Assembly (NCBI RefSeq): GCF_900446255.1
Contig: NZ_UIGI01000001.1
Span: 522,763-586,762, forward strand
From: Buttiauxella agrestis
Lineage (GTDB): Bacteria > Pseudomonadota > Gammaproteobacteria > Enterobacterales > Enterobacteriaceae
Length of the DNA stretch: 64,000 nt
Reading direction: 5' to 3'
The translations under genes and the position numbers were made by a program. Within the stretch, counting starts at the first letter, position 1. Each line of letters opens with the position of its first letter. Positions 58,382 through 62,113 of the stretch are shown one piece after another. The notes under the pieces were generated by a model. The model ran no database searches. It worked only from the letters and a program-made list of their open reading frames with translations, and was not told the origin of the DNA.

Positions 58382-59770
58382 ATGAGAATAACAGCATTAG
58401 CACTGTTAATAGCCGCTATTTTTTCAAGTGGCGCAATAGCCTCAACAAATGAATCAGCCCTGGAACAGCGTTTGAATCAATTAGAGAAACGCCTAATAGC
58501 CGCCGAAAACCGCGCTGCCAGTGCAGAAGCTGAAATCCAACAAATGAAAGCGACACCACCGCCAGTCGCGGCAACCGCACCGGTTGCTGTAGTGAGCGAA
58601 CAATCTGTTAATAGTAAAGCCGATAATCAATCGCCTAAATTAACCTTAAGCGGCTATGGCGACCTTAAAATATATGGCGATGTGGAATTTAATATGGATG
58701 CCGACAGCCACAGTAATGGCCTGACATCTGTTCGTCGCAGTGCCAATACTAATTGGGCCGATGGCACTAACGAGCGTTGGGATATTAATGGTCGTATTCT
58801 GCTTGGCTTTGATGGTTATCGCCGTATGGATGATGGTAATTTTGCCGGGTTCAGCGCGCAACCGTTAGCCGATTTAACCGGCCATATGAATCTTGATGAT
58901 GCGACATTCTTCTTTGGTCATGAGAACGACTGGAAAATTAAAGTGGGCCGCTTTGAAGCCTACGATATGTTCCCGCTCAACCAGGATACCTTTGTTGAAT
59001 ATTCCGGTAATACGGCGAACGATCTTTACGGTGATGGTTACGGCTACATTTACATGATGAAAGAAGGGCGCGGGCGTAGTGATACGGGCGGAAACTTCCT
59101 CATGAGTAAAACTATCGACAACTGGTATTTTGAGCTTAATACCCTGCTGGAAAATGGCACTTCTCTGTATCAGGACAAGTCATATCACGGTAATGAAATG
59201 GTGGACGATAAAAACGTGGCGTATGTCCGCCCCGTCATTTCCTGGTCTGAAGGCGCGTTCTCTGCCGCCGCGGCGATGGAAGCGCAAGTGGTTGATAACG
59301 CATATGGTTATAAAGATGCTAACGGTCAGATGGTCGATCAATCCAACCGCACTGGTTACGGCCTGACGATGACCTGGAACGGGCAGAAAAACGACCCGGA
59401 TAACGGCATTGTCGCTAACCTGAATACCGCCTATATGGACGCCAGTGATGAAACCGACTTCACCGCAGGGGTGAACGCCTTATGGCAGAATTTCGAGCTT
59501 GGTTATATTTATGCGCACAACGATATTGATAAGTTTGATGTGACCAACGCGGTGGAAAACTGCGACAGCGATTGCTGGATAACCAACGCCGGGAGTTATG
59601 ACATCCATACCATTCACTCTTCGTATCTCTTCCCGAACGTCATGGGCATGAAGAACTTTAATATTTACTTGGGGACTTACGTATCGTGGGTCAGTGCGGA
59701 TCAGGACTCCAGCGATGGCAGCGATAACACCCGCTATGGCGGGCGTGTGAGATTCAAATATTACTTCTAA
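58382..59770 (+). CDS. RafY-like carbohydrate outer-membrane porin
   Basis: A 462-codon outer-membrane protein. Signal peptide ends near SGAIA-ST (about 20). A short heptad coiled coil follows (ALEQRLNQLEKRLIAAENRA), like ScrY and RafY, then a Pro/Ala/Val linker, then a beta-barrel from about residue 80 ending in the terminal Phe (VRFKYYF). The barrel resembles RafY, the raffinose porin, more than LamB. The sugar is unknown, and no matching permease or hydrolase is next to it. Probably monocistronic; a REP unit follows. Confidence 0.85.
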   Translation: MRITALALLIAAIFSSGAIASTNESALEQRLNQLEKRLIAAENRAASAEAEIQQMKATPPPVAATAPVAVVSEQSVNSKADNQSPKLTLSGYGDLKIYGDVEFNMDADSHSNGLTSVRRSANTNWADGTNERWDINGRILLGFDGYRRMDDGNFAGFSAQPLADLTGHMNLDDATFFFGHENDWKIKVGRFEAYDMFPLNQDTFVEYSGNTANDLYGDGYGYIYMMKEGRGRSDTGGNFLMSKTIDNWYFELNTLLENGTSLYQDKSYHGNEMVDDKNVAYVRPVISWSEGAFSAAAAMEAQVVDNAYGYKDANGQMVDQSNRTGYGLTMTWNGQKNDPDNGIVANLNTAYMDASDETDFTAGVNALWQNFELGYIYAHNDIDKFDVTNAVENCDSDCWITNAGSYDIHTIHSSYLFPNVMGMKNFNIYLGTYVSWVSADQDSSDGSDNTRYGGRVRFKYYF

Positions 59771-59800
59771 TGTGGGCTGTAAGCGCAACTCTCTTCGTAG

Positions 59801-59827
59801 GTCGGATAAGCAGCCGCGTCATCCGAC
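59801..59827. repeat. REP-like element after the porin gene
   Basis: GTCGGAT-aagcagccgcgtc-ATCCGAC, a 7-bp stem with GC-rich loop, preceded by CGTAG: the usual form of enterobacterial REP (GTAGGTCGGATAAG). Likely also a 3'-end stabiliser. Confidence 0.75.
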
Positions 59828-59841
59828 AAAACTCACCCTCT

Positions 59842-59850
59842 CCCTCAGGG
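59842..59850. repeat. Left 9-bp target-site duplication
   Basis: CCCTCAGGG directly precedes the element's CTGTCTC end and is repeated exactly at 60491-60499 after the other end. Nine bases is the duplication size of Tn5/IS50-type transposition. Confidence 0.85.
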
Positions 59851-60490
59851 CTGTCTCTTAGTCACATCTTTGTGAGAAGGGAGACAGTTCCGTTCACCCG
59901 ATGTTCATTGTTTCATATAGCCACTGAACTGGTGAACGTCTTAGGGTGACCACCGTCGTCACCCTAAGAACCCGGACTCCCGGCAAATCAATCGCCGCAA
60001 GCGGTAAACACCGTTTTTCACCCAACATTCGCGGTCGTTCGCGACTCGTTCCAGACGATCGCTCACTCACGTGGCTCCCGGCCACGTGACCCCGACTGAA
60101 GGGTAAAAACGGTGCGATTGAAGCCGGAACACAAGGTCAACGTCAAAACCTAAAGACCACACCGAGCCGGTTTTGACCTTGTACCCGGTATAAATTGCCC
60201 CAGTGTTCCCCAGAAGTCAGGGTTGAGCTGCCGGGAGCAGCGAAAGTGAGCGATCGTCAGGAACGAATCGCGAACGACCCTGAACGTTGGGGATAAGCTG
60301 GGGTTTACCGCGCAGCGGCAATTTAATGGCCGGGCGACGGGGTCGCCAGGGGGATGTCGTTATCCCACTGGCACGTTCACCGTTTTCTGGAATTAAAGAG
60401 ATAACAGAACGCACGGGTGAACGGAAAATCAACGAGGCTTACAGGTCTCACCCTGACAAAATGCCCGGGTGAGTTGTGTATAAGAGACAG
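59851..60490. mobile_element. 640-bp non-autonomous element with Tn5/IS50-like ends
   Basis: The left end CTGTCTCTTAGTCACATCT and the right end, read inward, CTGTCTCTTATACACAACT agree at 16 of 19 positions. They differ from the Tn5 mosaic end by 2 and 1 bases. The element is bounded by a perfect 9-bp duplication. No transposase fits: only three ORFs under 75 codons occur. The interior is rich in inverted repeats: a 34-nt pair at 60033-60066 and 60246-60279 (32 of 34 paired), an 11-bp hairpin at 59940-59968, an 8-bp hairpin at 60068-60088, and CACCGTTTTT- and GTTTACCGC-type pairs. It behaves like a MITE mobilised in trans. Confidence 0.85.
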
Positions 60491-60499
60491 CCCTCAGGG
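60491..60499. repeat. Right 9-bp target-site duplication (contains the lsrK stop)
   Basis: CCCTCAGGG, identical to 59842-59850. Its TCA (60494-60496) is the lsrK stop codon on the minus strand, so the insertion left lsrK's reading frame intact. Confidence 0.85.
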
Positions 60500-62083
60500 A
60501 GAGGGTCGGGGAGAGGGCATCACCAACCCCGGCGCTTGCCACATTGACGTCGTCAAACCGCTATCAACCAGCGTGAGCTGATCGGCATATACCTTCATCC
60601 ACTTGCGTTTCATCTCGTCATACAACTCACGATGCGCCAGGTTCGGCGTAAACTCGTGTTGCCATTGCACCAGCCGTTCGCCAGCATCTGCCAGATTATT
60701 GAATATCCCGGCACCGACGCCCGCCGCAATCGCACACCCCAGCGCTGTCGCCTCTTTCACCACCGGCACGCGTACTGGCAAACCGGTTACATCGCTCAGA
60801 ATCTGGCTCCACAAAGCCCCTTTCGATCCGCCGCCAGCAAACACCAGCGATTCAAATTTAATGCCTGAAAAACCGGATATTTGCTCGAGATTGCAGGCCG
60901 AAACAATCGCTGCATTCTCTTCGAGGGCCCTGAACAGCGTCGATTTATTGCATTTTTCTGGGTCGATGGAGAGGTTAATAAACGACGGTGCAGCGTGATA
61001 CCACTGCTTGAAATGCATCGCGTCGGAGAAAATCGGCATCACGCCGTGAGAGCCAGCAGGCACCCGCGCCGCCATCTCTTCGAGCAGGGCGTAAGTGTCC
61101 ACGCCAAGCCTTTCTGCCAGCAGCTTTTCTTCGGCACAAAAGGCATCCCGGAACCAGCGCATGGTCAGACCGGTAAAGAAGCTAATGGACTCCGCTTGCA
61201 CCATGTTGCTGATAACGTGCGGATTAATGCGAATATTCATATCCGGATCGGTTTTGATCGCGGGCAGATTCACTACCTGCTGCCAGAACGTGCCGCCTAA
61301 AACTGCCGCTTGCCCGGCGCGAACCACACCCAGCCCTACACAACCGAGCTGCACATCGCCGCCGCCCATCACGACCGGCGTGCCTGCCAGCAAACCACTT
61401 TGTTGCGCTGCTTCCTGCGTCACGCCACCCAGCACGGTGCCGGTTTCTTTCACTGGTGAGAGAATGTCGGCGCGCAATCCGGCCATATCCATTAAGGCAG
61501 GCTGCCAGTCGCGAGTCGCCAGATCCAACATGCCAGTGGTACCCGCGTTAGAAGGATCCACCGCCAACTCGCCGCTCAGTTTCGCTGCCAGCCAGTCGCT
61601 AATCATCGTGACGGTTGCCGCCTGGCGATAAATATCAGGCCGATGGTGTGCAAGCCATAGCAGGCGCGGCATAGCGCTTAACGCCAGCGTCTGGCCGGAA
61701 ACCTGGTAAACTTCGGATTCAAACTGGAAATCGTGGATCTCTTTAAGCTCGGAGACTTCACGGCTGGCGCGGGCATCCACGTTGGCACATGCCCATATAG
61801 GATCGCCGTTACGATCGTAAAGCACGATCCCTTCACGCATCGAGCAGCAAGCGACGGCACTAATTGCACCTGGGGGAAGATGCGCTTTTTGCAGCGCATC
61901 GCGAATACATTGGCAGGCAAGCTGCCAGTTGGTGGTGAGATCAAACTCCATCGAGCCGGGAACATCGGCAACACTTAAGTGCTTCCATTCAGCCTGGCCG
62001 ACGGCAATCTGGTGGCCTGAAGTATCAAAGATAACGGCGCGAATACTCCCCGTTCCGGCGTCCAGCGCTAATAAATAACTCAT
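60494..62083 (-). CDS. lsrK: Autoinducer-2 kinase
   Basis: FGGY-family cytoplasmic kinase that phosphorylates imported AI-2 (DPD); phospho-AI-2 then relieves LsrR. The ATG at 62083 ([20 protein letters not shown]) has GGGGAAG upstream and gives 529 codons (530 in E. coli, with a different N-terminus). ATP-domain motifs [13 protein letters not shown] and [11 protein letters not shown] are intact. After the usual end (WQAPGL) nine extra residues VMPSPRPSP are read from a GC palindrome; the stop lies in the target duplication of the neighbouring element. Same strand as lsrR, 30 bp apart. Confidence 0.95.
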
Positions 62084-62113
62084 GAACACTTCCCCGCAGC
62101 TTATGGCGCGGGG

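Follow-up and report, generated by a model that had tools for sequence, protein, structure and literature searches.

A 640-bp element with Tn5/IS50-type ends and a foldback core, inserted at the apex of a BoxC/PIT-type repeat in Buttiauxella

Tn5 encodes a much used DDE transposase that is prized as a near-random inserter, and its target consensus is A-GNTYWRANC-T. Mobile insertion cassettes of IS4-family groups are non-autonomous, have IS-type ends and are flanked by duplications. TRIP1 repeats of E. coli are poorly understood. For the IS50 subgroup, PMC2266710 gives the end consensus CW------Y---CA-A--W-. Repeated palindromes serve as insertion targets of ISRm22 (IS4 family) and ISPsy8, the latter inserting on the axis of symmetry (PMC1525189). 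An intrastrand triplex is proposed for repeats of the BoxC/PIT/TMECO type (PMC4666352), and TRIP1-like repeats are reported to rearrange E. coli chromosomes (PMC10888264).

The stretch of DNA analysed here (64 kb, hereafter the window) contains a 640-bp element at positions 59851-60490, which by direct reading is bounded by 19-bp Tn5/IS50-type ends and flanked by two copies of CCCTCAGGG (left copy, 59842-59850; right copy, 60491-60499). The left end (CTGTCTCTTAGTCACATCT, 59851-59869, + strand) and the right end (AGTTGTGTATAAGAGACAG, 60472-60490, - strand; CTGTCTCTTATACACAACT as the reverse complement) are alike at 16/19 positions, with 3/19 mismatched, and differ from the Tn5 mosaic end at 2 and 1 positions, respectively. 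Counted by eye against the IS50 ends, the left end has 3 mismatches to the inside end and 5 to the outside end, while the right end has 2 to the outside end and 5 to the inside end. When at most 4 mismatches to the mosaic end and an outermost C were required, the two ends of the element were the sole two places found in the 64-kb window, compared with a mean of 0.05 such ends per window in 20 mononucleotide-shuffled windows; the exact mosaic end was absent from the 64-kb window. An earlier note on this DNA had described a 640-bp element with 19-bp ends (16/19) and a perfect 9-bp duplication, and re-reading reproduced this to the base; its placing of the ends within 1-2 bases of the mosaic end, with the left nearer the inside end and the right nearer the outside end, agrees with the counts above, and its statement that no transposase is present was borne out by tblastn across the whole 64-kb window, in which no IS50-type transposase was matched (best E 0.62).

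Both 19-bp ends fit the IS50 subgroup consensus by eye, and the 9-bp duplication of the window copy falls within the 8-9 bp of the subgroup. No DDE transposase with a YREK motif is encoded in the element, which is therefore a derivative of the IS50 subgroup rather than a member IS. As in MITEs, the element is short (640 bp) and without a transposase match in the window, has terminal inverted repeats and a target duplication, and is present in several copies in one genome (G009, B. agrestis). The whole element is predicted to fold into one hairpin, with an RNA energy of -338.8 kcal/mol (mean of 20 shuffles, -207.0; z -16.5). Known RNA families gave no match to 59700-60700 up to E 1. Maintenance of the hairpin by selection is not claimed: double changes were present at 38/190 predicted pairs in 13 copies (rows L085 and L094 were probably misoriented in this count) and were not counted as support, because many represent one block change and template-switch correction would look alike.

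The element is very probably a non-autonomous transposon of the IS50 subgroup (a MITE or small insertion cassette) of ISEc13-like origin, mobilized in trans into a C-rich palindrome. An ISEc13-like IS would have been stripped of its transposase gene while retaining both ends and some subterminal DNA, and a TRIP1-like foldback repeat would have come to occupy the space between them. Both 19-bp ends would be paired and the element excised by a trans-acting transposase of the ISEc13/IS50 branch, which would then insert it, with cuts staggered by 9 bp, in the middle of a C-rich palindrome, in this case a BoxC repeat. The ends, the duplication, the empty site, the family, the homology of the right shell to an IS and the likeness of target are shown directly, whereas mobilization in trans, the enzyme responsible and the sequence of events that united shell and core (see below) are inferred.

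An empty site in a close relative, which the earlier note had proposed to look for, was found in G001, the nearest genome searched. The query comprised 601 bases (both flanks and one duplication copy) and was matched over 599 bases at 95%; there the sequence is CCCTCTCCCTCAGGGAGAGGG, uninterrupted by an insert and with CCCTCAGGG present once. This rules out that the 640 bp are ordinary ancestral DNA. Other members or remnants were seen by eye in the same intergenic region of G005, G009, G006 and G010. A kinase-like ORF of 531 aa (60494-62089, - strand; named by eye) ends within the BoxC repeat, such that repeat sequence supplies both its C-terminal residues, PSPRPSP, and its stop, the latter lying within the right duplication copy.

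Relatives of the element were detected by BLASTN in 19/147 genomes, consisting of 12/12 Buttiauxella genomes, among which G006 gave weak matches only (E 2e-4), and 7 others; copies are undercounted because three candidates per genome were scored. Matches to CTGTCTCTTNNNCACANCT with at most 1 mismatch were present in 15/19 genomes (41 matches in G009), whereas the reversed control had no match in G009 and one in each of two further genomes, and a scan of named genomes for the exact left end returned 98 stretches. Of 25 regions fetched from G009, 20 contain paired ends with a spacing of 257-726 bp and at most 3 mismatches per end. The B. agrestis copies L070, L072, L080 and L081 are surrounded by the perfect 9-bp repeats CTCAGTCCG, CCCAAAGGG, CCCTAAGGG and CTCAGGGAG, L077 by a perfect 11-bp repeat, L069, L074, L075, L079, L083 and L085 by repeats of 9/10 letters and L078 by one of 8/9 letters; the remaining paired G009 copies have weaker repeats, and no repeat reaching 8/9 or 9/10 letters is present at 9/20 of the B. 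agrestis copies with paired ends. Duplications in family copies range from 9 to 11 bp. L078 (G009) and L002 (G004) occupy one site in two species, as do L094 and L099, and some insertions are therefore old. By eye, L009 and L024 appear to carry the same insertion as L078/L002, in several Buttiauxella species. Draft contigs of G005, G007 and G002 often break at or in elements, perhaps because of the long hairpins, the repeats or the removal of adapter-like ends by trimming. These data favour the earlier proposal of a family with differing duplications moved by an IS50-like transposase (four other perfect repeats and the G001 empty site). Its suggested BLASTN search for further copies succeeded within Buttiauxella, where the duplications differ, and, for the whole element, returned nothing from collections of E. 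coli (20,395 records), plasmids (72,556) and phages (50,697). Titles and abstracts of open-licence PubMed Central papers revealed none that deals with IS50-type MITEs in Buttiauxella, which does not prove that none exists.

The left end of the window element recurs in a 245-bp element of two uncultured Enterovibrio assemblies, for which 12 insertions in 11 loci (L175, L182, L193, L198, L200, L211, L222, L238, L239, L241 and L242) have perfect 9-bp duplications, such as GTCTACACC; the central base is A or T in 12/12, by eye the sites are not in C-rich palindromes, and further copies have no repeat. A proteobacterial MAG contains a 202-bp element within CCTCC..GGAGG palindromes (L160, L178). IS50-type MITEs therefore recur in Gammaproteobacteria, and the hairpin rule described below is not universal.

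The IS50-type transposase domain PF14706 was absent from 12/12 Buttiauxella genomes (one genome per species), so that no donor is shown for the genus; it was present in 6/147 relatives and in 17/392 genomes drawn from the family. G252 contains two 1492-bp IS copies (L110 and L119) with intact frames. The 456-aa product of L119 matches the Tn5 transposase in PDB (E 1.8e-85), and, in the listed full-length matches, the named element closest to it is ISEc13 (~73% identical). At the DNA level, the L119-type IS has matches in 2238/5426 E. coli genomes, in 870 of which 80% or more of the IS is covered. Intact ISEc13-like relatives reside elsewhere in the family, outside the 12 Buttiauxella genomes. 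A wrecked 2398-bp IS50-type copy in G034 is flanked by a perfect 9-bp duplication, its middle being filled by apparent IS110- and IS3-type genes (by eye). In E. coli 504239, a 35-bp palindrome between trmL and lldD (L268, 401-433 and surroundings) consists of two IS50-type inside ends and sits in a BoxC-like repeat; 13/60 sampled E. coli rows match solely its 33-base piece.

The element splits the apex of a BoxC/PIT-type repeat, the left half of which (CCCTCTCCCTCAGGG) lies at 59836-59850 and the right part (CCCTCAGGGAGAGGGTCGGGGAGAGGGC; by eye similar to entries in Table 1 of PMC4666352) at 60491-60518. Read by eye, the G001 empty site has the BoxC/PIT arrangement, in which CCCTCTCCC-loop-GGGAGAGGG precedes a third, G-rich block. 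The motif CCTCTCCN3-9GGAGAGG occurs 14 to 252 times per genome in 12 Buttiauxella genomes (reversed control, 0/12). Target sites were scored as hairpin apices when at least 7/8 stem positions paired and the centre was at most 4 bp from the duplication. The IS set comprised, from 36 PF14706 loci, 9 with ends on both sides plus L089 (a refetch of the L063 place), with L060 excluded for its short flank; the 28 element rows represent 26 sites, because L078/L002 and L094/L099 are the same sites. With one reconstruction, 16/28 element rows and 7/10 IS50-type sites qualified, compared with 2.3-2.7% of controls, and 8/8 stems were present in 6/28 and 3/10; with the better of two reconstructions, 19/28 and 8/10 qualified and 8/8 stems were present in 8/28 and 3/10. 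Counted as distinct element sites, 15/26 reached at least 7/8 and 6/26 reached 8/8. An earlier arm-pairing test, which ignored palindrome centres off the duplication middle, gave at least 6/8 pairs in 11/28 element and 8/10 IS sites (control, 3.8%). Among ISEc13-type loci (16, of which 11 independent), 4/11 independent sites had at least 7/8 pairs (L253, L255, L260 and L265) in a test that assumed 9-bp repeats, several being 8 bp; L252, in ygfK, had 4 pairs only. Two IS50-type elements of different genera, L089 and L253, lie in hairpins that resemble terminators and are nearly identical to each other (CCCCAGCTAGGCTGGGG and CCCCAGCCTAGCTGGGG), the second of them adjoining trpA.

Arm composition is clearer than the palindrome counts and carries the target argument. 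For this analysis, L067, L104 and L107 (no clean repeat, or N) and L255 and L256 (no repeat) were excluded from the IS sites, and 14/28 element rows with a direct repeat of at least 8/9 or 9/10 letters were used, amounting to 13 sites (L078 = L002), which as sequences belong mostly to one repeat family. With the right arm complemented, positions 2, 3 and 4 outside the duplication were C in 81, 84 and 94% of arms at the 16 IS sites; in the 14 element rows, position 2 was C in 100%, position 3 C or T in 100% and position 4 C in 100%. All six arm positions 2-4 were pyrimidines in 14/16 IS sites and 14/14 element rows, compared with 1.3% of window positions, and at least five of the six were C in 12/16 and 9/14, compared with 0.3%. 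The target rule of ISEc13-type IS is a pyrimidine tract facing a purine tract across 8-10 bp. This rule could be one of sequence alone, with a C tract giving way to a G tract over 8-10 bp and hairpins a by-product of palindromic sites, and we give that alternative an even chance. C nearly always forms the left tract and G the right one, and a REP-like palindrome at 59797-59828, 14 bases left of the left duplication copy, was not used as target; against this, arms at the 16 IS sites paired with their own partner at 5.75/8 positions vs 4.93 after shuffling, a value reached in 0.1% of 10000 shuffles, and L117 has the opposite polarity (GGGC..GCCC) and is still palindromic. Arm and pairing data are compatible with both the sequence reading and the hairpin reading. 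The REP-like stretch itself has many matches in Buttiauxella genomes.

The element is nested, an IS50-type shell of 37 + 62 bp surrounding a 541-bp foldback core. The left shell (59851-59887, + strand) consists of the end followed by an imperfect inverted self-copy, which by eye is the layout of the inside end in L119 and ISEc13. In the right shell (60429-60490, - strand), the outer 40 bp are 80% identical to the outside end of the intact IS50-type IS L119 (E 5e-6). The core (59888-60428), with inverted termini TTCCGTTCACC..GGTGAACGGAA, was delimited at the points where relatives in other copies start and stop. L098, a 404-bp Tn5-ended element from another genus, had matches in 63/295 family genomes (32/154 genera), and the E. 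coli K-12 stretch with TRIP1c matched 75/295 (41/154 genera), with at most 2 candidates per genome scored and many matches short. In a small local set, TRIP1c was 78% identical to L098 over 155 bp (E 6e-28) and 76% identical to the window element over 59 bp (E 4e-5), other pieces being short. The window core does not have the high similarity over a 146-273 bp repeat that defines TRIP1, and would be a distant relative of TRIP1 at most; it probably belongs to a wide enterobacterial repeat group that remotely includes TRIP1. The earlier note described neither the nested structure nor the non-random use of a hairpin apex as target.

A clear Tn5-type end pair was present in 1/60 loci matching L098 or TRIP1c, some of which overlap, namely L272 (the place of L098), and a recognisable shell is absent by eye from some Buttiauxella cores (such as L008 and L025) and from nearly all elsewhere. 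The histories of shell and core are therefore at least partly separate. The core might accordingly be the real mobile unit, moving by a mechanism of its own and caught by the shell only in Buttiauxella and a few relatives. We consider this possible but doubtful: the cores in dozens of genera and those without a shell speak for it, whereas the duplication and empty site of the window copy lie at the shell ends, not the core ends, so that shell and core moved together in the window insertion. An artefact of chance or of sequencing-adapter remains, to which the ends being 1-2 bases from the tagmentation-library adapter might point, has a negligible probability and was ruled out, since no exact mosaic end, and therefore no adapter, is present in the window, shuffled windows yield 0.05 ends each, and diverged, independent copies occupy different sites in several assemblies, including a 5.1-Mb contig.

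Weighing against a trans-mobilized IS50-subgroup derivative are the missing genus transposase, the 9/20 copies without a repeat, the weak G006 matches, the 4/11 ISEc13-type sites and the cores without a shell. The Tn5-ended element family, its nested architecture and the likeness of its targets to those of a named IS branch are real. A natural Tn5-like branch found at palindrome tips (intergenic repeats, terminators) offers a comparison for the protein determinants of target choice, and this branch is accompanied by a matching family of transposase-less elements, which is also a lead on how TRIP1-like repeats may have travelled. That transposases of the ISEc13 branch read folded targets (C-rich hairpin apices including triplex-forming BoxC repeats and terminators) and that non-autonomous elements with these ends provided one route for the spread of TRIP1-like repeats in Enterobacteriaceae, TRIP1 being a remnant, is an unlikely combination as a whole; its two parts, the hairpin reading and the TRIP1 link, are offered as leads.

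Compared with Tn5/IS50, the element has ends that differ from the mosaic end at 1-2 positions and a 9-bp duplication, but its target, CCCTCAGGG, misfits the published Tn5 consensus by eye. IS of the ISEc13/IS50 subgroup (IS4 family) share with it the 19-bp ends, their outside end differing by 1 base from the element's right end, as well as duplications of 8-9 bp, subterminal sequence on the outside-end side and, in sampled sites, C-rich and often palindromic targets; unlike the element, they encode a transposase, in place of which the element carries a repeat. TRIP1 of E. coli (PMC10888264) is likewise a GC-rich foldback, and TRIP1c is similar to the core and L098; the TRIP1a and TRIP1c stretches of K-12 that were read differ in showing no Tn5-type ends, and the similarity to the window core is short. 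ISRm22 and ISPsy8 resemble the element in using a palindromic repeat as target, but are autonomous IS of other groups at other repeats. The MITEs and cassettes of other IS4-family groups are, like the element, non-autonomous with IS-type ends and duplications, whereas the interior of the element is a separate foldback repeat group.
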